Below, piece by piece: positions 1 to 56,534 of a DNA stretch of 64,000 nt. The position numbers were made by a program, and so were the translations under genes. Positions within the stretch are counted from its first letter, which is position 1; every line of letters begins with the position of its first letter. The notes beneath the pieces were generated by a model. That model saw nothing but the letters and a program-made list of their open reading frames with translations, was not told the origin of the DNA and ran no database searches. The DNA comes from Rhypophila decipiens (taxonomy: Eukaryota; Ascomycota; Sordariomycetes; Sordariales; Naviculisporaceae): the NCBI GenBank assembly GCA_033297075.1, contig MU858047.1, forward strand, positions 558,001-622,000, in the 5' to 3' direction.

Positions 1-638
1 TCCATCACTCTCGGCCATAGCATCGGGAGCTCTCTTCTCGGGACTGGCGCGATACCTCCATGTCAAGCCATTCCAGAGCAGTTCGGCCTCGTCTTCTGTT
101 TCGACCGCGTCAACCTCGGCCATAACAGCGGGAGCTCTCTTGTCAACGTGAACGACATTATCCCGGCGCTCGGGACTGGCACGATATCTCCATGTCAAGC
201 CATTCCAGAGAAGCTCGGCCTCGTCTTCCGTTTCGACGGCCGAAGTGTCCCGCTTGTTTTCTATCGAATAAAAGGCGGAGTGTTAGTGAGTCGTAAGATA
301 CATGTAGTCGGTAAGCTCCTGCAAGAGAAAATGGGAACAGAACAAATAGCGTGAAAGGCAAGATGAGAATTTCCACATAGACCAGGTAGCACAAAGACAG
401 GCAACAGTAATTACTAGCCTTGGTGTGTATCGGGATGTGCAACAGCTCTTGCGGAAAGGGGAAGGGGCCTCCAAGCAACATTGGTGTACCCTTCCATGCC
501 CTCGAAGCAGATCCACCCAGGCCTTGAACATAATTTCATGGGTGGTTGCTTACCGGGCTTGGCTGGATTTCCAGCTGGGGCGGCCAAGACGACTGCTGAG
601 AGGAAGCTCAGGGATAGGATGGAGAGTTGCCACTTCAT
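1..638 (-). CDS. Kex2-processed repeat precursor peptide, candidate dikaritin RiPP precursor (3' end beyond the window)
   Basis: Exon 1 (638-554) starts with a clear signal peptide, MKWQLSILSLSFLSAVVLA, then APAGNPAKP. A GTAAGC donor at 553 and a CTAAC branch plus ATAG acceptor at 262-261 define a 293-nt intron; the phases agree. Exon 2 (260 to base 1) opens with NKR and reads without a stop to the edge. It holds two 44-residue (132-bp) repeats, each with an identical 23-residue block ending LLWNGLTWRYRASPE, followed by RR or KR. KR dipeptides also precede and separate the repeats. This architecture (secretion signal, dibasic-flanked repeats, UstYa genes next door) is that of UstA/PhomA-type precursors, which Kex2 cuts in the Golgi before cyclisation. 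Which residues form the core is not known; the W/Y-rich stretch is the inferred candidate. If the intron is retained, translation stops at 414, giving a 74-residue secreted peptide. A strong TTGCAG acceptor near 330 could mean a further small exon, but it breaks frame in the simplest model. Confidence 0.8.
37..237 (-). repeat. Two copies of the 132-bp precursor repeat core
   Basis: The conserved 69-bp blocks are at 237-169 and 105-37. They differ at five positions, all third-codon and all synonymous (ACG/ACA, GAG/GAA, CTT/CTG, AGA/AGG, CGT/CGC), so the encoded 23 residues are identical. The spacers between blocks differ in sequence and length of the basic-site arrangement. Confidence 0.9.
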
Positions 639-877
639 TTTTCTTGCGGTAAACGGGAGGTGCTTCTTTAACTGGTTGTATTTGCGTTTTTGTGGGGTGC
701 TTGTCGACAACGTTTGACTCCTTCTGATGTGACTAGGAGACTAAATACAAAGAGTTCAAAACAAACAGGACTCTGACTTCAATTTTATAGGACAGCGCCT
801 ACTATGTTGCTTCGCCAAGATGATGCTTGGGGTATCCTATCTTCGGTGTTACCAGTAGAGAGCGGGGCAAGGTTCCT

Positions 878-892
878 TACCCGGGCCGGATA
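878..892. promoter_or_regulatory. CGG inverted repeat, imperfect copy
   Basis: TACCCGG-G-CCGGATA, one mismatch from the perfect copy at 1064-1078. Paired CGG/CCG triplets are the usual type of Zn2Cys6 regulator target; binding here is inferred. Confidence 0.4.
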
Positions 893-1000
893 ACGGGGTT
901 CATTCGGCGGTTCCGGTGATGAAAACTGAGACCGCCCCGCTCCGGGCCGCCGCTTTCCTATCGCACAGCTGTCCCGCCATAAACGTTGCGGGTAATCGTG

Positions 1001-1011
1001 CATAGCCTATC
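1001..1011. promoter_or_regulatory. CATAG-N-CTATG motif, site 1
   Basis: CATAGCCTATC, one mismatch from the perfect palindrome, and preceded by G as at most other sites. It lies between the precursor gene and UstYa-1. Confidence 0.55.
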
Positions 1012-1063
1012 CACGGCAAGAGTCGGCAACCCATCAGAATCCCGGACACACAATGGCATTCCC

Positions 1064-1078
1064 TATCCGGGCCGGATA
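1064..1078. promoter_or_regulatory. CGG inverted repeat, perfect copy
   Basis: TATCCGG-G-CCGGATA is a perfect 7-bp inverted repeat with one central base. The first 14 bases from CCGG onward also occur at 881-894. Confidence 0.45.
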
Positions 1079-1116
1079 ACTCCCGGGAACCAGGTAGGCA
1101 CCTGCGCCGGTACTTG

Positions 1117-1127
1117 CATAGCCTATC
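1117..1127. promoter_or_regulatory. CATAG-N-CTATG motif, site 2
   Basis: CATAGCCTATC preceded by TTG, 116 bp from site 1 in the same orientation and with the same single mismatch. Confidence 0.55.
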
Positions 1128-1299
1128 TCCATTTTACATGGCGTGGACCACAATTCAGATGGCCCATTGTTTAACCCCGAGACACTCAAATGCCCACCTT
1201 GACAGCAGAACATCCTCATGTGGGCCTACCATTATCTCTTCGTCCTATTTTTCCGGTTCCTTTCATCCCGTTCTTACCAAGTCCGTGTATCACTGAAAG

Positions 1300-2321
1300 A
1301 TGATGGCCAAAGTCTTCAAGTTTCCACGTTGGGGAAAGACTGCCCGCTACCAGAAGGTTGAGGATGACGACGAGGAATCCAGAGGCAGGAGCGGAATACT
1401 ACCAGACTCTGAGAGCGACAGCCCCATAATTTCAGAAGAGACAATAAACGCCCATCGGTCCTCATTCCCAGCCGGCTCAAGACAACGAACAACCTACACT
1501 ACTGGTTTCACTATATCACTTATTATTACCAACCTTGTTACCTTAGCCCTTTGGCTATCGTCTCTTCACCGAATCGACCGATGGCTCCGAGATACTACCA
1601 ACTTTGACGATAAGCGAGCGTTTCTGGTAGGCCCAGCCCAAGTACCCGTCAGCTACGAGACTCGCAGATTCTCGCATATCCCGCTGGAGCGAGGTCCCGG
1701 AGGAGCCCATGCGGCCGACGAGTTTTGGCACAAAGTGGTCTCGGTTGGTTTGACACGCTTGACTGCAGAGCAGGCTGCCCTCGGCGGCTTGGGCGATGGC
1801 AAGACGTCAAGGGAGTGGAACACGACTGATTCATACGTCGGCGTGATGGGGACCTTCCACCAGCTACACTGTCTCGCTCGGTCTCGATACGCCATACTGT
1901 TTCCCGGAAGAATGAAGGAATTTGACGGAGATAAGACTGCACAAATCCATTTAGGTATGTCATATCATCAGCCCGGTCATTTTAATTTTAGCGATGTCTA
2001 TTTCTTTGAAGCTAACTACCTTCTCTACCTCATTTTGCGATAAACAAAGCCCACTGCTTGGACTACCTCCGCCAGATAATCATGTGCCACGGCGACGTGA
2101 CGATTGAGCCGGTGGGATGGGACGACAAGACTCTTACGTACATTGCTGAGCCCGAGAAGATGCAGGTAGTCCGACAATGCAGGAACTTTGATGAAATCTA
2201 CGAGTGGGCCGTGGACGATGTCCATCAGGTCCCGCAGGCTCCCGGGAACGCAAAGGGTTGGGAGGAGTTGAGGGAGTTTGAGAAAGAGCATCCTCGCCAT
2301 AGTAACAAGCAGCCAAAGTAG
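1300..2321 (+). CDS. UstYa-family oxidase 1 (formerly DUF3328)
   Basis: Exons 1300-1954 and 2050-2321 give 308 aa. A single membrane segment is at about residues 69-88 after a polar cytosolic tail. The two family motifs are HQLHC (187-191) and HLAHC (217-221); the intron splits the alanine codon of the second motif in phase 1. UstYa proteins are type II membrane proteins that act on Kex2-released peptides in dikaritin biosynthesis (ether-bridge formation in ustiloxin, phomopsin, asperipin), probably using the His/Cys motifs to bind metal. The start could be either of two adjacent ATGs (1300 or 1303). It is transcribed divergently from the precursor gene, and its C-terminal half most resembles the gene at 9429-10324. 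Confidence 0.9.
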
Positions 2322-2879
2322 ACAAATCAGTACTTGATAATACTCCAGAAATTGGTTTAGTTCATTTACCTACGATAAGATGATAAGTGACAATCAACAC
2401 AAGTATAACTGAAAGACATTGATGAGATCGTGACAGGGTCACAGGAACTCATGCCTCTCTTTGTGCCATCTCGAGTACCCTCGAAGGGTGTCAAGACCAG
2501 GACAAAAACTACACAATCAACGGTGAGATGATGTATGTCTGCTCATTCACAAGGTATGTCCTTTCCAAACTGCTGCCGAAATGGATGTTGGTCATTGCCG
2601 TGGCTCCAGAATCTATGCTGCATCGCAGTTATTGGGAACAGAAGGATCAAGGCTTACACATGGCTAACGTAATACCCAGCTAGAAGCCAACCGGAAGTTG
2701 GGTAGGCATGCACCAAGTCCAAGACGACATACATAGCCTATGCGGTCCAGGGGTACTTGCATGTGAATACCACAGGAAATACTTGCAAGTAGAGAGTCTC
2801 CAAGTAAAAGGCCAGTGCAACAAGGAGCCAGATCCATCAACAACAACATCTCTCCTCATTGTTTTTTCTCGAATTAATC
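2322..2879. other. Intergenic, upstream of UstYa-2
   Basis: No gene recognised. It holds one perfect CATAG palindrome (2732-2742), 138 bp before the chosen ATG of the next gene. Confidence 0.6.
2732..2742. promoter_or_regulatory. CATAG-N-CTATG motif, site 3 (perfect)
   Basis: CATAGCCTATG followed by CGG: the same 14 bases, CATAGCCTATGCGG, occur at 10740-10753, 8 kb away in front of other UstYa genes. Confidence 0.65.
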
Positions 2880-3719
2880 ATGGCGATGCACAGTATTTAC
2901 ACTCTTCACCAGCGCTGCTGCTCAAAGACCTCCATCGTCGTCGTAGTGGCGCTGCTTACATCATGCCTCTTTGTTCTTTTTCTTTTCGAGCTCAACGTCG
3001 TCGACAGTTCAAGGATTCCATACCGTCACTGTCGGGTTGGTGAATGGCCACCACCACTCGAGAATGGTCGTCCAAGTCATGATGACATTTCCCAGAAAAA
3101 TGACAATAATAACCAGCCGCACAGTCATTCCTCCGCTAAGTGGAATGATGACATTCACCACCACCAAGAAGAAAGCCGTCTAACCAAAAAGACCCTCTTC
3201 GCAACGACGACAAACAGCCATCAAGTCCTCTTTCTCAACTTCTCCCACGCCAAAGACCAAGAAATACAAGATACTCTTCGCCCCAACGGAGCAGGTGTCC
3301 TTTGGAAACAAGAAAAAGGAGAAAACCTACCCGTGGGAATATCCGTCTTTCACGCTATGCATTGCCTGATTTATCTGCGGGGGATACTCCAGGGTGCCCT
3401 TCTCACTCCTTCTCCTCCTTTTGAACAAGAAGAAGAAGGGAACAAGAAACATGGCCATGACCCAAAGACACATATCCCGCCCTGTTGGTCGTACATCACG
3501 CAGCAGGTCATGTGTCTGGGGGATACGACGCTGGAGCCGGCCCGGGTGGTGGATGACAAGGTGGGCATCGATGGGGATGGCGTAGGGCATATGTGTAAAG
3601 ATCTTGGAGGGATCTTGTCGGTTCATGGGCTTCTTGGGAGGATGGCTAGGGGCGAAGTGTTTGAGGATTTGGGCCCTTGGAGGGATGGTCAGCGGCTTGA
3701 GGATTTGTTTAATTTTTGA
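2880..3719 (+). CDS. UstYa-family protein 2 with a degenerate second motif
   Basis: Intronless, 279 aa from the ATG at 2880 (an upstream in-frame ATG at 2859 would add seven residues; the later one puts the membrane segment at the usual distance). Membrane segment at about 18-37, then a long Asn/His-rich linker. The first motif is intact, HAMHC (158-162). The second reads HIPPC (198-202), with Pro in place of the second His. It is followed by the usual MCLGDTTLEP-like segment, which supports family membership. The missing His may mean loss of catalysis, a partner role, or another substrate. Converges on the regulator gene. Confidence 0.85.
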   Translation: MAMHSIYTLHQRCCSKTSIVVVVALLTSCLFVLFLFELNVVDSSRIPYRHCRVGEWPPPLENGRPSHDDISQKNDNNNQPHSHSSAKWNDDIHHHQEESRLTKKTLFATTTNSHQVLFLNFSHAKDQEIQDTLRPNGAGVLWKQEKGENLPVGISVFHAMHCLIYLRGILQGALLTPSPPFEQEEEGNKKHGHDPKTHIPPCWSYITQQVMCLGDTTLEPARVVDDKVGIDGDGVGHMCKDLGGILSVHGLLGRMARGEVFEDLGPWRDGQRLEDLFNF

Positions 3720-4213
3720 GTTGGCGTTTTGTTTGTTTCTTTTTGGCTGCTTCCGAATTTCGGGGGGGGGGGGGGGGGGGTTCTTTTTTTGTTATGGGTA
3801 GGGCCGTCACGTCACCGGGATACGTTTGCCTTGTGAAAAGTTCAAGGTTAGTGTTGGATCAAACGCTGTAAGCGAAGGTTCGGGCAGTGGCCAGAACCAT
3901 GTATTTGTAATAAGTTGCCACAGCCGCGTAAACTGACGCGTAATGGCTTGCCACCATTCACACACAGCTATAAGAGGCTCTCTGGCAGGGCCAGAGAACA
4001 GAGATAGAAAAAGTAAGAACAACAGACCTGATCACAACGCATAACAGCCTGCCGCAGCAGTAGGCCTCGTGCAACGTGATCTGGGTCCGTGACTTCACCA
4101 CTTCAGACGTCTTTACATTAAATTGCAACCAACAGTTAGCTAGACCCCGGCTATACAATCAAGATCCCTCGTACGAAATGGCTAGTTTTTGTTGATAATT
4201 GACATGATATTAT
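3720..4213. other. Convergent 3' intergenic region
   Basis: Lies between the stop codons of UstYa-2 (+) and the regulator (-). It contains a run of 19 G (3762-3780). Nothing else recognised. Confidence 0.6.
3762..3780. repeat. G19 homopolymer
   Basis: Nineteen consecutive G 43 bp after the UstYa-2 stop. The length in the assembly may not be exact. Confidence 0.8.
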
Positions 4214-6781
4214 TTATTCCCAAAACCTCAATCCATCGTCCATGTCGTCGCCACTATACCCGTCACTTGGGTCAAGGTGAGCATAGTCGTAGGACCCTTG
4301 TGGGAAAGAAGGTGAGGAAGGAAAAAGGTGGTCCACCATTGAGTTACTACTACTTGTGCCATGACAACTGGATTCAAGCAAATGAAAGCCCGCAGTGGTG
4401 ATGCTGTTGGAGCTCAGTGAATCACTGACATGGTGACTGGCACCATTACCCTTGGGGGTGCCCCTATGATGGGGTTGCTGATTGCTGCCGTCGTTCTGAT
4501 CTTGATCATGATGGTCGCTCAAGGTTGCAAATGTGGAATGGCTAAAATGGCCAAAACTCGGGTTTGTGCTTAGGCTTCTTTGTCTTCCTGTTCTGGTTGA
4601 AGTTGTTGTCCCCGGCGCTGGCTGTACTGGGATTGCAGCTTCTGAAATTTGATGTGGCCGAGAGAGAACTGTAGGGCCAACTCTGACAGAGCGAGCTGGG
4701 GAAGAAGGAGAGTAATACTCTCGAGCAAGGGTCCTGAGCTGCTTTGACTCGGTTTGGGCAAGTTTCCATCTTGTGCTGGCTTGCCTCAAGGCGCCAAGTG
4801 CGAGGCGCAGGTTGTCTCGTGCAAAGTCATAATCGTCGAAACTGAATGTGTCGTCTCGGGAGACTCGGTAGCTCCGTAAGCTTGCCATGGCACATCGTGA
4901 TAGGAATGCGATGCTGAGAGGACTCGAGATCAATAGCCGTGGATAGACGGTGACGAGACTAATTCCTGCCCCAGAGGCTTCCAGTCCTGAATTTTCGTGC
5001 AAGAGGTTCATAACGTCGTCATGGTTGGTTTTACATGCATCGTTGATGTTTTCATGAAGCAACACCCGGAGGCTGTGGAACAAAAGATGAGACTGGAGCA
5101 TGATGTGATCCATCTCACCCGTCTTGGCGACCTGTAGTCGTTGGTGCTTTTGGGGAAGACGCAGCTTCCAGTTGGCGAGTAAAGCATCGGCTCGCATCAG
5201 CGAGCCCATATCGAAGAAGCCTGTACCCAGCTCACATGCCGAGTTCACGTTCTTTACCGACAACAGGCGCCTGGTCGACTTGCTGATTCGGACAAGATCG
5301 ATGAGGTATACCAGTGACGAAAATTCGGGCCCGTAATGATCTTCGAGATCAGCAAAGTCAAACACTGAGAGGGTTGGCGTCATGTCGTTATTCCCGTTGT
5401 AGCTCGGAAGCGGGAAATCAGGTGATGGAAGGTCCAGTCTTGGACGTAGCCAAGTTAATACAAGTCTTTTGCGAGGCACTTTGAGGGTAAACGTACCGAA
5501 ATTTCCGTTTGGAAGCATCCTGGGAACGGGTATTCTGTAGAGCTTCATCCATAATATGCAAATACCAATAAGTTCTTGTCCAGAGCCCGAAATGGTGTTG
5601 ATCCCGGGCCTTCATGCTCGTCACCAGCCCGACACGGTTCATGCCCATCTCGGCAGCCACTGAGACTGCTTTGTCCAGGTAGTCCCCTGCGTCTTTCATG
5701 TTGCCTTGGCCAAAGGTTACTATGGAGACCAACAAAAGCGCCGCAACATAATATACGACTTGGGGATCACAGCCCGAAGGAGGGATCAAAGGCCGATGGA
5801 TAGATTCTTCCAGAACGTGGATAGATGGCAGCGCCTGGGAAGAATCTTCTGGCTGTGTATAAATACCGCCTACATAACTCATGACCGCATACATGGAGGC
5901 TGCGGATGAATTATTCTGCTGGATTTGACATCTCATGTAGGCCTTGGGGGGCGCAAATGGATGGGCTTTGTGGAAGAATCTGCGAGTATGTGCCACAGGA
6001 TCAATTCTCGTCTGGTCCAAGACTGGGGAAATATTAAGCTGAACTCACTGGTAATATGAGTCGACGCCCCTAGACGCACCGTGATCTTGAACCCGTTCAA
6101 GTGGATCCAGCAAATCAATTCTGGCTGTATTGTCGTGGTGCAGTGGTTGGCCCGGCAACGGCTCAGGGGCTGGCGGGGTCGCCCTAACCCTAACCCTGCC
6201 CACGTCCGCCGTAACGTCCATAACTGTCGAAGCGGCAGGATTTCCGAGTGTGTGCATATCGTTAGGGGTTGGAATTCCAAATGCATCAACGACGCCATGG
6301 TTTTGGGAAACATTACTAATACCATGGCTCGAGTTATCTATAAAAGAAAACACGCTGGATGGGCTCGGTAAGGGGGGTCGAGCCGTGGAGACTGAGAGCG
6401 CACTACTGCGTCTCCTGCGAGACTTGGGATAGTAGCAAACCCGCTGTTCTTCCTCGCACCGGTTGCACGTTGGCCTTCTCCCGTCACACCGAGCGTGGAG
6501 TGACCGGCACTAGCATCGGTGAAGTGAGAGGCTGGTGAGCTTGTAGTTGACCAACGCAAGCATCAAGTTAAGACGGGACAGAGAAGTGGGAGGGTACCTA
6601 CAGCATGACAGGCCACCGTTGCCCGGTGTCGTACGTTGGTAGTGAAAGGACCGGACCGCCTCTCTCGAGCGTCCCCTCGAGCATCCTGAACTTGAGTAGG
6701 GAGCCCTCCGGGGTTTAGTGTGGCTGACACGCTGTCATTACTGAAACTCAGTTGGGAGGTCTGGTGCAATACCGCCATCAT
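4214..6781 (-). CDS. Zn2Cys6 fungal transcription factor, likely cluster regulator
   Basis: Exons 6781-6602, 6509-6049, 5979-5497 and 5438-4214 sum to 2349 nt, 782 aa; every junction is in phase. The binuclear zinc cluster is rebuilt across intron 1: Cys 58, 61, 68, 75, 78 and 85, spacing CX2CX6CX6CX2CX6C, followed by a basic SRRRRSS linker. Residues from about 215 match the fungal-specific (MHR) domain, including FFHKAHPFAPP and, across intron 3, SKRKFRLDLPSPDFPLP. The tail is Ser/Pro/Gln-rich. It sits inside the UstYa array, as UstR-type regulators do in ustiloxin-like clusters, so it is inferred to activate these genes. Starts at one of two adjacent ATGs (6781 or 6778). Confidence 0.9.
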
Positions 6782-8146
6782 AACTTCCGAGACCGGTGTT
6801 TAAATGCAGTGGCCAGTCAGCTCGTAAAGAACTGACCATTATTCTTTATAATTTATACAAGACATGGTCAATCAATATTTACTTAAGAAGAAACAGGTAC
6901 AGGACATTCTCGGACTTACAGTTAAAAGTGACAGCCTGACAGTCGGGTTTAACCTCTCTTACCCATATCTCCTCTCCAACCTTCCAGATCAGGACCGGTT
7001 TTTTATCCCCTTTCGAACAGTTCTGCTTTATCCAAAGCAAGTTCGTCATTTTGAAGCCTTCCGTCCTCCCCCATCGTAAAAGACTGGGACGTAGGAAACT
7101 GAAAGCAGCTTAATCGCCGAAGGCCCACAGCTGGAGCCGCGGGATGATAGCATCGGCCACCTTAACAGCTGCTTGGCACCTTTCCATAACGTCGTTGAGT
7201 CCCAAGAAACCCGGGAATTGATCAGGGCTCAAGAGTAGCATGAAACATCACTGAAGGCAACTCGAAACTGCAAACCGAGCCTCACTGCCAGTGTTCCGAA
7301 CAAGCCAATCCAAGTCAAGTGGGGCCGGTATTTTGACTTGTATTTGGGATATCCCCGGCCAATTGAGCTGCGCAATCAGAGTCGGCCACTTACACCGACA
7401 GCTGGGAACGTACCGCTTACGTAAGTTAGCCAACATGAGCTCTGAGTTCAGAGGTCACTGGTGGCTGAGATAAACCAAACCAAGGATTGCCTTAAGATCA
7501 CCTAGGTGAACATGAAGCTATTTGCAGATCTAGCTGCCTTTTGGACTGGCCCAATAAGCAGTGTGACTGGAAGCTAACATATATGTCCACCAGATCCAAG
7601 TACTTCAAGTAGGTCAATTCAAGTCGGCTGGCCGAGTTGGGTCGAAATTGCCTGTACTTTTGACTGCTCTAGATTTGATAACGTCAGTTTGGGTTGGATT
7701 GCTTTGAGCTGGATTGGATTGTTCGGGGCAGTGAATGCTCAAAAAGGCAGGTGCATTCAATGGTACATTAGTAAGAGAGGCCGACTAAGGTACTCCTGTA
7801 TCAAGAATCACCGGCATACTAGGTCACGCGGCAGGATAAAATTTTGTACAAGGAATAGTTATATGATCGACAATTGGGGTGAGATTTCTTAGGCTATGCA
7901 GTCGATAAATCCTTGTATCCAGGAAATACTTTTGCCTTCAAGCTTATCAAGACATGGATCTGATCATGATGCCGTGATGGCTGTTGGATGGAACAGATGA
8001 CTTGTTCCATGAGCAGAGCAGCAACCATGGTGCTTATCAACTTGAACCTGCCAACATTTTGCCGTCCAACTAAACACCACCCAACCAGCCGAGCCCTCTG
8101 TCAATCTCCATTATCTCTCACTCTCTTCGATGTGTCTGCCCTGAAA
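6782..8146. promoter_or_regulatory. Divergent promoter region between the regulator and UstYa-3
   Basis: 1365 bp with no recognised gene; small ORFs here have no family features. An AT-rich stretch lies near 6841-6860. One CATAG-type motif is at 7888-7898. Confidence 0.55.
7888..7898. promoter_or_regulatory. CATAG-N-CTATG motif, site 4
   Basis: On the minus strand it reads CATAGCCTAAG preceded by TG, one mismatch from the palindrome. It is 249 bp before the UstYa-3 ATG. Confidence 0.5.
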
Positions 8147-8884
8147 ATGGACGACACCAAGTACGAAAGACTTTCTGTCGATGACCACTCAGAACCAGAC
8201 AACGGAACCAAGCCCTTGCTGGATCCCTCTTTGAACCCAAAGGTCACAAGTTGGCAAACGAAAACCGTTACCCGTCTCCGGCGTCTCGTCCCACCACCGA
8301 CGAGGCCAATCCTCTCACAGACCGTGATCATCAGCTACTGCGCCTTCACAACCACCATCCTAGTCATCCTTACAGCCATCATTCTCTCCCAACAACAACT
8401 ACTAATATCGTCACATCAACCAAAAGAAATCTTCCAGGCTACTTTTGGTGCCGACCCATTCTACATGTCGCTAGACCACAAGTACGACCACCTATGGGAG
8501 GACCTCGGCTCCAAAGGCCTGATAATCAAGCTACCAGACGCCGACAGTGACAATGGAAAGCCGACGCCGGCGTCCATATCCATGTTCCACCAGCTCCATT
8601 GCCTATCTTCTCTCCGCAATGCACTCCAGCAGAGCCGGGAGGGTGTAGATCCCGGCTTGGACTGGAGGGATAACGACCATTGGCCGCATTGTCTGGATTA
8701 TCTTCGCAAGACGCTTCTTTGCAGGGCAGACGATGTTGTCGAGCGCCGTCTTGTGTTTGACAATGGGACTGTTTCGCGGTTTATTGACGGGTCGCAGGAT
8801 TTGAGGCAGTGTGGGGATAGTCGGCGCCTTATCCGGATTATGCGGGAACATGGCAGGCTTGTAAACACGGTTCCGTTTCCTTGA
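8147..8884 (+). CDS. UstYa-family oxidase 3
   Basis: Intronless, 245 aa from the ATG at 8147 (MDDTKYERLSVDD, a typical UstYa N-terminus). The frame is open upstream to an ATG at 7988, but that 53-residue extension lacks family similarity and would bury the membrane segment. Membrane segment at about 60-80. Both motifs are intact: HQLHC (148-152) and HWPHC (178-182), followed by LDYLRKTLLCRADD, the usual segment after motif 2. Like UstYa-2 it has no introns. Expected to act with the other UstYa proteins on the secreted precursor. Confidence 0.9.
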   Translation: MDDTKYERLSVDDHSEPDNGTKPLLDPSLNPKVTSWQTKTVTRLRRLVPPPTRPILSQTVIISYCAFTTTILVILTAIILSQQQLLISSHQPKEIFQATFGADPFYMSLDHKYDHLWEDLGSKGLIIKLPDADSDNGKPTPASISMFHQLHCLSSLRNALQQSREGVDPGLDWRDNDHWPHCLDYLRKTLLCRADDVVERRLVFDNGTVSRFIDGSQDLRQCGDSRRLIRIMREHGRLVNTVPFP

Positions 8885-9428
8885 GCATGCGCCAGAAATG
8901 GGGAATGTATTTGGTTACTTCTTATTTAGTTTAAAACATTGTGGTGATAAGAAATTTGATATTTGGTACTCATCTCATCCGACTGAAACGTGAAGCAGAC
9001 AGGACAGTGACTGGATTCAACGAATGAAGAAGTCATAAAAGGCGAAGAGAATAATTCTGGGTTCGAATAGAAGTAATACGAGAAACCAGGTTCACCCAGT
9101 AATGGGAAACCGCAGATTAGGAGCAATTGATTACTGAGCAAAATTATTTACGTTATGTAAACTTTTTTAACTCTTTTCTTTTGTTCTCTGGAGCCCTTAT
9201 CTGGACCAACGACCATGAACCCTGATCTTGTATTTATGACATACACCATACCGAGCTTTTCACCATTAGAGAGTCCATTTGACTTCCTCCAAATGTACAA
9301 TAGAATATTGAATTATTATCATGTATACCCTCTATTGGGCATCTACCAAGCATTAGATGACTTTCTCCCTCTGCTAAAATCACAACCTGATGACTTTTAT
9401 GGACCCTAAATCCGAAGATACCACTTAC
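8885..9428. other. Convergent AT-rich intergenic region
   Basis: Lies between the stops of UstYa-3 (+) and UstYa-4 (-). No motif or gene recognised. Confidence 0.6.
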
Positions 9429-10324
9429 TTAAATATCCTCAGACTCGTGGCGCACAGGATCAAGCACCCACTCGTGGATCTTGCCAAAAGACCGGCACTG
9501 CCGAACGGTATCATCTCGAATGCCGTAGGCTTGCAGTCTCGAGTCCCAACCGATCGGCGCGATTTCCACGTCGGCCAGGCATGTGAGGGTCTGCCGCAGG
9601 TATTCGATGCAGTGGTCTGCATGTCCCGGATTCTTCATTCGTTCGGCGGTCGGGTCCGCGGCGTAGATGAGAGTTCGCAGATGACCCAGGCAGTGTAGTT
9701 GATGGAAGACCTCGACGATGCCCACGTACATTGAGGGATCGTGCCGGCTCCACGTCGTCGGGGCGCTGAGGCTGTCGGCTTGGGCTTTGGTAATTCTTAT
9801 TAGGCCCGCTGCATACTTTGATGGTATTCCATTAATATCAGCAGCTTTGTCAAAGAGGAGAGAATAAGTAACCAAGGGACCAACGTACCGTTGAGTATGC
9901 TATCCCAAGCAGCATCGGTGGTCGCATTTCGGGGACCGAAAAAGGCAGTATACTGCTTTCGAACACCTGTCTGGAATCGAAAAGACTCCATTGTGACGGG
10001 GATTTGGGCTTGTCCAATGAGGTGAACTCCACCGTCCGAGTCTTGCTCCTGGCAACTGCTGATGGCGCCAGTGCCCCTGGTGATGCAGACTAGTAGGAGG
10101 GTGGCCGACAGAAGAATGTTTATTGCTACCAGTACCCCAACGGCATGGATTCTGAGCCAATATCTCAGCCCGTACGAGGTTTCATCGGAGCTGTCTGGAC
10201 CATGACCGTCGCCAGTGTCGCCTTCGCGTTTTGACCTTGGTTCGGAGATTCTGTGATAGTCCCCCCAACGACGGGCTCGGTCTTGCTCAAGCTTCTTGCC
10301 AGGTAAAGTAAACATCTGGACCAC
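9429..10324 (-). CDS. UstYa-family oxidase 4
   Basis: Exons 10324-9889 and 9844-9429 give 283 aa. The 44-nt intron is short but has a GTACGT donor, ends AAAG, and joins AWDSILN to AADINGIPSKY in phase 1. Membrane segment at about 58-81. Motifs are HQLHC (193-197) and HADHC (220-224), then LRQTLTCLADVEIAP-I-GWDS. The region after motif 2 closely parallels UstYa-1 (GWD..., VRQCR.F..I.EW), making these the most similar pair in the cluster. The ATG at 10324 is chosen; one three codons later (MFTLPGKK) is possible. Confidence 0.88.
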
Positions 10325-10693
10325 AATGACTGAGCTTCCGGGGGTTGACCCAGCCTCTCATTCAGGCCAAAGTAAGTAGTGCCGGTTGTACTAGGTGCGG
10401 TTAAAAATTCGAAAAGATTGCCAAGATCATGAAAGGCCCGGAAATATTTGTGACTTCTTGAAGGGCAGAATTCACCAATGCAATAAAGAAAAGAGGTTAT
10501 AGTGCCACCCAAAAGTCCCAGAGACTCGGTTTTCCATCTCGACCCAATGACCCAAATCTTTCGTTCCAGGCTCAGTGTGGAGGGGGATGGAGTGTTGGCA
10601 GGTCCGGCAGGATCACCCGAGGGAACTGGAATCCGAAGCTGGCTTAAGTGGGCCTATGGCCTGGCATCCCGGATTGCTACAAGTATGCAGGCG

Positions 10694-10704
10694 CATAGGC
10701 TGCC
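10694..10704. promoter_or_regulatory. CATAG-N-CTATG motif, degenerate site
   Basis: CATAGGCTGCC: one full half-site preceded by GCG, the other half degenerate. 46 bp from the perfect site. Confidence 0.35.
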
Positions 10705-10739
10705 TACCTTGATCCGAGAACATGTCCGCCCGCGCCCGG

Positions 10740-10750
10740 CATAGCCTATG
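10740..10750. promoter_or_regulatory. CATAG-N-CTATG motif, site 5 (perfect)
   Basis: CATAGCCTATG followed by CGG and preceded by G, identical over 14 bases to the site at 2732. Confidence 0.65.
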
Positions 10751-11010
10751 CGGTATGGTGCGGGTGCATGCCACGGAGAATCCGGATCCCTTGGATTTCC
10801 ACTCTGTACCCGTTGAGGCTAGATGGATTTCCGTCTCGAGACCTCCTTATTCATCGCCTGTGCAACAAAAGAGTTGCAAATTCAACCCCTGTGGGCCGCT
10901 GCGCTCTTGGTTCCGCGTTTCTTCTTTTTATCTTTCAGTCTCCTTAAAAAAACAATACCAAATCTGGACCGGCAAGTCATTTCCTACCATTTTCGTCGAC
11001 AACTCTAGTC

Positions 11011-12286
11011 ATGTCCACTTGTGGCCCAACCCACGAGCAGGTCAACCACAAGAATGAAGCCCAGCCCATGATAGCACGAGAACGAAGTTCTGAAAGCTCC
11101 TCCGCCGAAATGAAACCTTTTGAGGATTGGGAACAAGACAATGATGATCTTGACAATCCATCGACAAAACAAGCGAGTCTCAAAGGTGGTCGTTGTATTA
11201 GCATCCTCCCTTGGATACCACACCTGCTCCTCCTCCTTACTTATTGCGGCGTCTTGATCACCTGGTCTGGATTTCTGCCTCACTTGAGAGGTCTGTCACA
11301 TCTCTCCTTGCCTCCATGATCTATCATTACATCGCCCCTCATATTGACCAACCATGAGGTTCATTGGCACTCACGAGATGATTATAGCACCCCTAGAACC
11401 GGAGAGCTCCTCCTCATATTGCAGAGCATCCGAGCAGCAGCCCACCAAAGTCTCCCCAAAACACAACAACTTGAACTGGGAGGCAGCCTTTACAGGAACC
11501 TTGGCCGAGATAGGGGACTTCTTCAACGTCTCGGATATCATTCCCAACCCAATTACTTCACCCGGTGCGGAAGCAGCTTGGGAGCGGGTTCAAAAAGGTA
11601 GGTAAAAAAAATTATTTCTCTCTCTTGCCAATGTCTCATTAATGGACAAATGAGTTTCCAAGTCTACTAGTTCACACGTTCTTTGCATAAAACAGCCGAT
11701 AAAGAAAACGTCATCCACAGAAGCAAGACCAATTTCGTCAGGATCAACCGGGCAGAGATACTCAGTTCCCAGGAGGGTGACAAAACGGCTTTGACCCGCA
11801 TCCACAGGTTACATTGTCTTGTAAGTCCTTGTTTGTTGGTGTCGTTATTGGAAACTATTCCCATTCTCATTTACCAACAACCGACAAATGTTAGCATGTC
11901 CTCTGGCGCCGTTGGCACAACCAGATGACCGACTTTGAGAAACAAACAAGCATAGTTACCCAGCCTCATGACGGTATGTATACTTATCCTGATACTTATT
12001 CCATAGCCGTCTTCTTCTTATTCTTATTCTTCTTCTTCTTCTTCTTCTTCTTGACCCCGAGACCTAATTCTGGGAAACTAAAAACAATTCCCTTACTGAT
12101 ACAACAACAGACCACTGCTTCGCAGTCCTCCGCTACGCTCTCATGTGCGACAATCAGGATTTCATCATCAGACGGGTAGGGTGGACGGCAAAGAAGAACA
12201 TGCGCGAAGGGTGGATAGATGTCGCCCGGTTTTGTAACGGATTAGACCCCGACACGAATGGTGGGGAGGATAATGCGAACGCCTAG
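11011..12286 (+). CDS. UstYa-family oxidase 5, five exons
   Basis: Exons 11011-11290, 11388-11597, 11696-11820, 11895-11973 and 12111-12286 sum to 870 nt, 289 aa. Membrane segment at about 68-86. The first motif HRLHC (200-204) ends exon 3 and runs into HVLWRRWHNQM, a family-typical continuation. The second motif HDDHC (230-234) is created by joining exons 4 and 5, then FAVLRYALMC. Intron 2 sits after AWERVQK in the same position and phase as the UstYa-4 intron; intron 4 splits the middle codon of motif 2 exactly as in UstYa-1. The first donor (GTCTGT) is weak, so exon 1's end is the least certain part. Confidence 0.85.
12011..12053 (+). repeat. TTC-rich microsatellite in a UstYa-5 intron
   Basis: A run of CTT/TTC units inside intron 4, making that intron (137 nt) longer than the others. 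Confidence 0.8.
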
Positions 12287-12401: not shown

Positions 12402-12521
12402 ACATACGACCATAGGCGCTGGAAAACTCGGGATCCCGTCCGCTCTCCCATAGATAAGCCAGCGACCGCCGGACTAGTACTCAGGTGGGTGACCACTGGG
12501 GAATCCCCGGTGTTGTATGTT
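12402..12521 (+). rRNA. 5S ribosomal RNA
   Basis: About 120 nt starting ACATACGACC and ending GTTGTATGT followed by TTTT, the Pol III stop. The first and last nine bases pair completely (one G-T pair), forming helix I. Internal segments CCCGTCCGCTCTCCC and GGTGGGTGACCAC are the conserved loop and arm sequences of fungal 5S. Filamentous ascomycetes carry dispersed single 5S genes of this type. It lies 116 bp after the last UstYa gene. A 5S pseudogene cannot be fully excluded, but the stems look intact. Confidence 0.92.
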
Positions 12522-19082: not shown

Positions 19083-20206
19083 CTAAGACCAAAACATCAA
19101 CTTGGGCTTCCCACCAGTGACTTCGGCCGGCAAAAGCCCAATAAAACTAGCCATCGCCATCCTCGGCACGAAATTCTGCTGCTGAGCATCCTGAACCTTG
19201 CCTTCTCCATTGAGAGTATTAACTTCCTCCAACGGAGCAACAGTGTGCATATTCCTCGAATTAAAGAAATACAGATCTCCCATCTCAGGCTGGAAGGTAG
19301 TCTGTTTCTGGCCCTTGACTAATTCCTCGAAATACCCATACGACGATGGATCCCGGTATTGAAGAGCATCGGGCGACCATTGGACGTCAAAGACTGTTGT
19401 GCTTCCTCCGCGGGTGAAGGGGCTTAGGTAGAGGTTGAAGACGGCTTGGTGGGTGATTTTGCTGAGGATCCAGGACTCGGTGAGCGTGTCGTAGGGGGCC
19501 CAGTCGCAGTGGATGGGTACGCCGGCGTTGATTTTGCGGATTATGCCGGAGAAGTATTCGGTTTCTTGGAGGTTGGTGGTGGATGATGGGGAGGGTGAAG
19601 AGAAGGCTTCATTGGCGAGACAGACGTCCCATTCTGGCACCAGGGGCTGGATGGCGGCGATTACCTTTTTCCAGATGTTTTCGCCGTTGAGACCTGGCAC
19701 GGTAGTGGCGAGCTCGTCGTGGAGGGAGCGGACTTTGGCTACTTCGTTGAAGTAGCGTTGTTTTTCTGAATGACTTGTTAATTAGGACTTGGCAGCAATA
19801 TTTGGGAAAGGGGGATAGGGGTACCATTTCCGCTCCTGTTCTTGAAGTCTTCTTGAGATTGAGCCTGAAACTCAAACTGCGCAACACCAACCTTGGACAC
19901 TGGCGGTCCTGTGGCATGCAAGTAAGGTGAGAATCGGGGTCCTAGGTGCTCATATACTGCCTGGGATTGGTCTTTGGAGATGAATTGGGCTTCTTTGATC
20001 AGGGGCGTTCGGCCGTAGATGAGGTCGAGGAAAGACTCCCGGGTAAGTGAGACAGGATTCGTAGTCTTCCATTTGGATTCGTATGGCGGTGTCTCTGAAG
20101 ATGACGACGAGGCATGTGAACAGCCACATGCTGTTGTGCTGGGAGTGTCCTTGGGAGCAGGACCTAGGCCCATGGCGCTAGTGGGAATCTGCGATGTTGC
20201 GAGCAT
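19083..20206 (-). CDS. 2-oxoglutarate/Fe(II)-dependent oxygenase-like protein
   Basis: Exons 20206-19825 and 19765-19083 give 354 aa; the phase-1 junction reads NRSGNEKQRYFNEV. The C-terminal half has the pattern of a double-stranded beta-helix oxygenase: HCDWAPYD supplies an HxD pair and NMHTVAP a distal His about 80 residues later, with RMAMASFIG as a closing strand. The N-terminus is Ser/Thr/Pro-rich without a clear signal. The family is only recognised at the fold-motif level, so substrate and pathway are unknown. It could be a tailoring enzyme, but its upstream region lacks the CATAG motif and the NLR relics separate it from the RiPP genes. Confidence 0.6.
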
Positions 20207-21039
20207 TTTCTGGTGGTAGTTCCAATCTGCCGGGACGCGAGGGGAGCTCGATAGGGAAGACCGTTGTGAAGGTGTGACCGTATCACAGCAGTTGTATTTC
20301 TCGGCTGTTTTTGTGGCCAGATGGTTTGGAGAAGTTGTCTTTGAGATTCAGGCTTGAGATGGAGATGAGAGGAAAGTACTCGAGATCATCATAAATCTCG
20401 TAAGAATGGCCTTGTGGTTTTATCTACATATAATCTACGCATCTACCGCAATCATTTTTAAGGAATCTTTAACATCAATTCGTTACCTTTTTCCGAGCCT
20501 CAACATCGGTTTCATTGAGCAGGTGGGTCTGTAAGGCCAAACAAGGTGACGGTGAAGTGGTGATGCACCCTCATCCGCATCTGCCCATGTAAGCTTACAC
20601 TTTGACAATGAGGATCCGATAGCTCTGGACCAATAGTACCGCCACACATTTACTGACATTTATGATACCTTCCCGAAAGGACTCTTAGCTGTAGGCAGGC
20701 TACGGAGTAGTGAAACCGAATCTGTTGACTTGATGGGCTGCATGCAGGTCGCAGAGGTCATATGCGAAGAATTCTTACTTCGATGAATATCAACATCCGT
20801 GGACCTTGGCGATATCTTACCCCTGAGTTTGGAAACTAAAGACACAGCAGCCTTACAATTTCCAGGATTAAACTGCACGTGTTCTTCGTTGTAATCAACC
20901 CTGTTGATATAGACCAAAAAGAGTAGCCATCACATTTCTTCACTTTAATAAGCTTTTGAGAGATCCAGAATGAATTGAAAATTCTCAACGGCCAACTGAT
21001 CATTGATCACTAATTATTATCGTTCATATCAACTTCAGA
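20207..21039. promoter_or_regulatory. Divergent intergenic region
   Basis: Lies between the divergent oxygenase and AspRS-like genes, AT-rich toward 21,000. No gene or CATAG motif seen. Confidence 0.5.
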
Positions 21040-56113: not shown

Positions 56114-56534
56114 GGCCCCTAATATACAGGCACCAGTCCTCTTATATAGAGGCACTACTCTTGTTGGAATAAATGCCTTGACTGGACTTGAATAGAGGCC
56201 TTGACTAGCTAGAATAAATGCTTTAACTAGCTAGAATAAATACCTTAACTAGCTAGAGTAAATACCTTAACTAGCTAGAATAAATGCCTTAACTAGACTA
56301 GAATAGAGGCTTTAACTAGTTAGAATAAATGCCTTGACTAGCTAGAATAAATACCTTAACTAGACTAGAATAAATGCTTTGACTAGCTGGAATAAATGCC
56401 TTGATTGGCTGGAATAGAGGCCTCAACTACGTAGTTAGAATAAATACCCTGAGAAATTGAATTTGCAGTATTGGACAAGTGCCTGATATTGGAGTCTTTT
56501 AATCTAGATTATGGCGCCTAATATTCGGGCACCA
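56114..56534. repeat. Imperfect direct repeats flanking the minisatellite
   Basis: GGCCCCTAATATACAGGCACCA (56114-56135) and GGCGCCTAATATTCGGGCACCA (56513-56534) share 18 of 22 bases and both follow AATCTAG. They bracket the tandem array. Confidence 0.7.
56165..56450. repeat. AT-rich ~21-bp minisatellite
   Basis: About 12 imperfect units of the form CTAGCTAGAATAAATGCCTTGA, with TAAATACC, CTGGAATAAATG and ATAGAGGCC variants. The core CTAGCTAG is itself palindromic. Confidence 0.9.

Follow-up and report, generated by a model that had tools for sequence, protein, structure and literature searches.

What does a small gene with an internal, dibasic-flanked repeat make when it stands beside five genes of the UstYa (DUF3328) family and one Zn2Cys6 regulator? 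The question is raised by the left end of a 64,000-nucleotide stretch of Rhypophila decipiens DNA (the window, comprising bases 558001-622000 of contig MU858047.1, here C3, which is 844,360 bp long in a genome of 45.7 Mb and 408 contigs). Rhypophila belongs to the Naviculisporaceae (Sordariales), and R. decipiens strain PSN293 is described as homothallic and as isolated from donkey dung (PMC12734299). An earlier note on this DNA had proposed an undescribed dikaritin-type cluster at positions 1..12286 of the window, composed of a repeat precursor, five UstYa genes and one Zn2Cys6 regulator. All of these components were confirmed by a 119-residue gene model and by profile scores for PF11807 and PF00172, in the order precursor (-), A (+), B (+), Zn2Cys6 factor (-), D (+), E (-) and F (+). 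The proposed content of the cluster thus stands, while its left limit does not, as the locus begins 15 bases to the left of the window. Judged from the sequence, the locus is very probably a compact, co-regulated cluster for a ribosomal, oxidatively cross-linked peptide of the wide dikaritin or ust-RiPS kind, a reading supported by two further observations: the splice join predicted for the precursor is carried by proteins of two relatives, and a promoter motif is common to the precursor and the five UstYa genes. Coordinates below are those of the window unless they are prefixed with a contig name.

A putatively secreted precursor with two Trp/Tyr cores

Leftward extension of the sequence, as advised in the earlier note, completed the precursor gene, whose stop codon lies 15 bases outside the window. 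The gene comprises two exons on the minus strand (C3:557986-558638) and encodes 119 residues. Exon 1 (638-554) carries the start codon and a signal-like N-terminus with the hydrophobic 15-mer LSILSLSFLSAVVLA, as judged by reading and hydropathy only; exon 2 (260 to 1, and on for 15 bases to C3:557986; own-genome match at C3:557989-558261) carries both core repeats and the dibasic sites; and the intron between them (553-261) is bounded by GT and AG. Dibasic sites begin at residues 31 (KR), 60 (RR), 69 (KR) and 104 (KR), and cuts at these sites would give fragments of 30 (the signal region), 27, 7, 33 and 14 residues. A 24-residue repeat, AVETEDEAELLWNGLTWRYRASPE, occurs twice in identical form, ending the 27- and 33-residue fragments, with a dibasic site after each copy. 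Each core holds one Tyr and two Trp, and no YxI is present in the core LLWNGLTWRYRASPE. The earlier description of the core as Trp/Tyr-rich and unlike YAIG, YVIPID and FYYTGY holds, and the copy number is settled as two.

Of the 72 bases in the 24-codon stretch, 6 are not shared by the two copies; each of these changes is synonymous, and 0 of 24 residues differ. A simple model gives this synonymous-only pattern a P value of about 4e-4, a biased figure in that the stretch was picked for being identical; when the comparison is widened by five codons, three leftward and two rightward, seven codons differ synonymously and four nonsynonymously between the copies, and the amino acids differ at four of the five flanking codons compared, just outside the repeat. 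We take this as only a sign that the inner stretch may be held by selection.

A scan for Kex2-repeat genes across C3:528001-622000 (the 94 kb to which the motif counts below also refer) found this precursor as the sole gene, with none in 40 triplet-shuffled versions. The scan works, because it found a second precursor, on contig C306, in 66.6 kb of 12 other genome stretches; no precursor was found in two further C3 stretches. Searching the species' own genome for a second copy of the precursor returned, beyond its own two exons, two insignificant matches (E values of 1.05 and 9.15).

Homologues of the precursor were sought among database proteins of about 65-208 residues with exact words in common, a search that many-repeat or unannotated relatives could escape. 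Two of 459 scored candidates matched at E ≤10, both from Rhypophila and both named hypothetical proteins: one, with 93% identity, from Rhypophila sp. PSN 637 and the other, with 91% identity across 93% of the query, from R. decipiens V8F06. In both annotated proteins the same exons are joined, and the residues around the join are the same as predicted here. Because the precursor of the present strain was not seen as a deposited protein among the 459 candidates, it may be unannotated in the deposit. In all three genomes EDEAELLWNGLTWRYRASPE of the first core copy is the same, and the corresponding part of the second copy varies, being WNGL in the present strain, WNGGL in PSN 637 and WNDL in V8F06. 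The precursor (V8F33_011949), F (V8F33_011955) and B of PSN 637 each come from an 81,774-bp contig, and the tag numbers between precursor and F, themselves not seen, are five, equal to the number of genes A, B, Zn2Cys6 factor, D and E here.

A promoter motif confined to the locus

A motif first spotted by eye was followed by counts of all 8-, 9- and 10-mers in the four upstream regions. The 9-mer CATAGCCTA tops the 9-mer count, with five copies in the 94 kb (0.7 expected), distributed over 4 of 4 upstream regions, and 0 elsewhere. It forms most of the palindrome CATAGSCTATG, and a search allowing at most one mismatch to this palindrome returned only the same five sites in the 94 kb. Two copies lie in the divergent promoter of the precursor and A (1001..1009 and 1117..1125, both on the plus strand), one upstream of B (2732..2740, plus strand; perfect palindrome CATAGCCTATG), one upstream of D (7890..7898, minus strand), in the divergent region between the Zn2Cys6 factor and D and nearer to D, and one in the divergent E/F promoter (10740..10748, plus strand; perfect palindrome). 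When sets of four length-matched intervals were drawn at random from the whole 94 kb, coding sequence included, 0 of 2000 gave a set-confined 9-mer present in all four intervals (the best was three). Genome-wide, CATAGCCTATGCGG has two sites, both in the cluster, and its reversed control has none. From its placement, the motif likely marks a co-regulated unit of the precursor, A, B, D, E and F.

The regulator, between B and D, occupies approximately 4217..6781 on the minus strand in a model that is incomplete. Its Zn_clus domain (PF00172) reaches 28.6 bits, above the cut-off of 21, with the Cys6 motif assembled across the first intron, and Fungal_trans (PF04082) scores 16.2 bits, under the cut-off of 23. 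As the neighbouring factor, it would be the candidate to bind the motif. A second exact repeat, CCGGGCCGGATAAC, is found at 881-894 and 1067-1080, both within the precursor/A promoter; it has no other copy in the 94 kb and may be a further regulator site.

Five divergent UstYa-family proteins

DUF3328 proteins are indispensable for cyclising the cores of ustiloxin, phomopsin and asperipin (PMC7329392) and employ oxygen at a dicopper site, according to work cited in PMC12186524; a double HxxHC motif is named for UstYa proteins in PMC12048977. A profile search placed 5 of 5 genes above the PF11807 cut-off of 25 bits, so the contrary outcome named in the earlier note, an absence of PF11807 matches, did not occur. 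Gene A (1300..2321, plus strand; exons 1300-1954 and 2050-2321) encodes 308 residues, scores 111.9 bits and has the motifs FHQLHC and HLAHC, the second formed only across the splice. The single-exon genes B (2880..3719, plus strand; 279 residues; 58.2 bits) and D (8147..8884, plus strand; 245 residues; 59.7 bits) read FHAMHC and HIPPC, and FHQLHC and HWPHC, respectively. Gene E (9429..10315, minus strand; exons 10315-9889 and 9844-9429) encodes 280 residues with FHQLHC and HADHC and gives the highest score, 117.5 bits. Gene F (11011..12286, plus strand) has five exons encoding 289 residues, scores 48.4 bits and has HRLHC and HDDHC, the second restored only by splicing across intron 4. Two HxxHC motifs are thus present in each of A, D, E and F. 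All five proteins have a hydrophobic 19-mer inside their first 90 residues, and pairwise identities among them in a joint alignment are 17-35%.

Our model of F is identical to the deposited protein QBC37DRAFT_409543 at 289 of 289 residues. Its relatives include three Xylaria proteins and one Xylogone protein, with 44-48% identity over the alignment and both HxxHC motifs invariant, and two metagenome proteins with 51-52%; no precursor relative outside Rhypophila was found among the 459 candidates. Matches to B came from Rhypophila only (3 of 920 candidates, its own protein included). A sequence search for solved-structure relatives of E gave none at E ≤10.

Predicted pathway

In the pathway that we propose, CATAGSCTATG would be the site at which the Zn2Cys6 factor activates the precursor gene and all five UstYa genes, and the signal peptide would take the 119-residue precursor into the secretory pathway. 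Cleavage by Kex2 behind KR or RR would then free two peptides with the C-terminal end ETEDEAELLWNGLTWRYRASPE, of which the acidic N-terminal half may be a recognition part and LLWNGLTWRYR the likely core. By analogy with their family, the five UstYa proteins would be copper oxidases working in the lumen, where they would introduce cross-links or desaturations into side chains; Tyr and/or Trp are the likeliest residues to be joined, perhaps in several rounds. A trimmed cyclic peptide would then be secreted.

Which residue might be attacked can be considered in the light of a survey in which 1758 of 7878 Kex2-repeat proteins had DUF3328 neighbours and cores were highly diverse, with DUF3328 genes on average 3.09 genes from the precursor and 1.7 per precursor (PMC7329392). 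Tyr is presumably the safer guess, because it is commoner in repeats with DUF3328 neighbours (65.6%) than in those without (38.2%), which does not hold for Trp (20.5% versus 24.5%; PMC7329392). The survey therefore lends no support to Trp as such, which may nonetheless be a partner. Nor need all five UstYa proteins be cyclases, we suggest, because dehydroamino acids in phomopsin are likewise introduced by this family, according to the title of a reference in PMC12186524.

A more far-reaching proposal, which we put forward tentatively and regard as possible rather than probable, is that the UstYa copper oxidases do the tailoring alone, unaided by any tyrosinase, P450 or methyltransferase: five divergent enzymes would act in turn, each making one bond, to convert the W..W.Y core into a polycyclic scaffold with Trp-Tyr or Trp-aliphatic links. 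If so, the WNGL, WNGGL and WNDL variants would give rings differing in make-up and size from one precursor.

Contrary evidence and alternative interpretations

Several observations weigh against assignment of the locus to a cross-linked peptide. None of the 60 genome matches to tyrosinase (PF00264) is on contig C3, and, by Pfam models, the scanned frames of at least 110 residues in C3:543-571 kb hold no domain of a methyltransferase, P450 or peptidase (a scan that left aside 547745-548398, which is part of an ABC transporter gene, 554599-555021, and all frames under 110 residues); the enzymes for any such step would thus have to be encoded elsewhere. Over the whole genome the shorter motif GCATAGCCTA shows no enrichment, with 24 sites (4 here) versus 39 for the reversed control, and the perfect palindrome has 12 sites (2 here) versus 17 for its control, each site counted on both strands; the motif is unusual by its crowding into the locus, not by genome-wide enrichment. 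In V8F06, F is on a 64,344-bp contig, apart from the precursor and B, which share a contig of 29,278 bp; either an assembly break or a rearrangement may account for this. The AlphaFold model of F is poor (mean predicted local distance difference test score, pLDDT, of 46.4), too poor for viewing a copper site. Finally, the second metal motif of B reads HIPPC in this strain, one His fewer than the HIPHC of both relatives.

This altered metal motif raises the alternative that the cluster is decaying or silent in this strain and that its product has been lost through B, for which the variability of the second core copy between genomes might also speak. We consider this unlikely, because the modelled reading frames are open, the 24-residue repeat copies differ at synonymous sites only and the promoter motif stands upstream of all six RiPP (ribosomally synthesized and post-translationally modified peptide) genes; moreover, B might function without both motifs intact.

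The limits of the pathway are a separate matter. Just 7-23 kb to the left lie an ABC transporter gene (C3 546-551 kb) and a second UstYa group, U1-U3, which includes a 2OG-Fe(II) oxygenase (C3:535-543 kb; 535189-542970) and is 15-22 kb away; three UstYa frames of the group exceed the PF11807 cut-off, so that a larger cluster including these genes in the same pathway could be envisaged. That they are part of it is quite improbable, however, as an F-box-like gene (just under the Pfam cut-offs) and a gene for a Ser/Thr-rich secreted protein intervene at the left of the cluster, and as neither CATAGCCTA nor the one-mismatch palindrome has a site in 528-558 kb, which is the best evidence that U1-U3 and the transporter are separate from the pathway.

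The least plausible alternative is that Kex2 processing of the precursor yields a signalling or pheromone-like peptide that stays unmodified, with the UstYa genes serving something else. Ascomycete alpha-pheromone precursors have Cys-containing repeats of the W-C-R...C-W type, whereas the present precursor contains no Cys and no such repeat; an alpha-pheromone-type DNA pattern had 0 sites in the genome, from which nothing follows as the pattern may not fit this species, and the mating pheromone gene, which was not located, is unusable for exclusion. With only two repeats here, with 78% of surveyed fungal Kex2-repeat proteins lacking a DUF3328 neighbour and with pheromone precursors of the same architecture (PMC7329392), this alternative has some appeal, but we regard it as highly improbable given that the promoter motif is common to the precursor and the five UstYa genes and absent from the rest of the 94 kb, and that almost all pheromone-annotated Kex2-repeat proteins in that survey (with three exceptions) are without DUF3328 neighbours (PMC7329392).

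Comparison with known clusters

An oxidatively cross-linked peptide, the product that we favour, would come from a kind of cluster that is already known; what appears to be new is this core, a cluster with five UstYa genes and no tyrosinase, and the regulatory element. The dikaritin label of the earlier note fits in the wide sense of a Kex2-repeat precursor with DUF3328 proteins, but not in the narrow ustiloxin/phomopsin sense, which implies a YxI core and a tyrosinase. A Zn2Cys6 regulator is present in the ustiloxin B cluster as well, and the asperipin-2a precursor has more repeats than the two-repeat Rhypophila precursor. The asperigimycins of Aspergillus flavus, fungal RiPPs with Trp-derived benzofuranoindoline rings, would parallel a Trp/Tyr core. 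To our knowledge, the substrate has been identified for few UstYa reactions, and how several UstYa proteins of a single pathway share the work has largely yet to be established.

The closest likeness in gene content is to the phomopsin cluster of Phomopsis (Diaporthe) leptostromiformis, which also combines a Kex2-type repeat precursor with five DUF3328/UstYa genes but has the core YVIP and an indispensable tyrosinase (PMC7329392), whereas the present core is Trp/Tyr-rich and lacks YxI, and contig C3 has no tyrosinase match. The ustiloxin B cluster of A. flavus and Ustilaginoidea virens shares the signal peptide, Kex2-flanked repeats and UstYa/UstYb oxidases, but differs in its YAIG core, its indispensable tyrosinase and its two UstYa-type genes (PMC7329392). 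The asperipin-2a cluster of A. flavus resembles the present one in its aromatic core, FYYTGY, and in UstYa-type cyclization, for which a tyrosinase is said to be unnecessary in such clusters (PMC12048977); its Tyr-O to Phe ether is formed by a dicopper DUF3328 enzyme (PMC12186524), and it has another core and one UstYa gene (PMC7329392) rather than five. Xylaria and Xylogone F-type proteins are like F in both HxxHC motifs.

The strings 'WNG', 'LTW' and 'WRY' do not occur in the main texts, as distinct from the supplements, of PMC7329392 and PMC6339444, and a search of the open-access literature by titles and abstract starts, a coverage that leaves out most subscription journals, found no publication on this cluster. 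If the predicted Trp/Tyr cross-linking is true, the locus would add a core type far from YAIG, YVIP and FYYTGY. It offers a small, defined system with one precursor, two identical cores, five enzymes, a motif marking the likely pathway limits and natural variants within Rhypophila.

Neighbouring genes and other UstYa loci

Just downstream of F lies a 5S rRNA gene (12402-12521), followed by an ankyrin-repeat gene (518 residues of frame scanned). Some 7 kb to the right of F, a gene at 19086-20347 on the minus strand shows weak, sub-threshold matches to WelO5 halogenase and 2OG-Fe(II) oxygenase models; the cluster promoter motif is not nearby. On the left, the scan of 528-622 kb found no Kex2-repeat precursor near U1-U3, and HxxHC motifs are seemingly absent from U2 in the frame read. 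Further out, C3:528003-529784 encodes a condensation domain of the nonribosomal peptide synthetase type and, where the stretch ends, a possible carrier domain that stays under its cut-off.

Across the genome, 67 exon matches to PF11807, merged by hand when within about 10 kb, form 34 loci, a rich UstYa repertoire; precursors were sought at only a few of these loci. F does not appear among the matches of this exon-wise scan and was probably missed because five exons each encode only part of its domain. The second precursor recovered by the Kex2-repeat scan (C306:3420-3719, minus strand) has five YNGDDEGADKK repeats and stands amid UstYa matches; this locus is probably another ust-RiPS cluster of the same genome. 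Elsewhere in the window, about twelve 22-bp units are arranged in tandem at 56167-56429, unrelated to the cluster.

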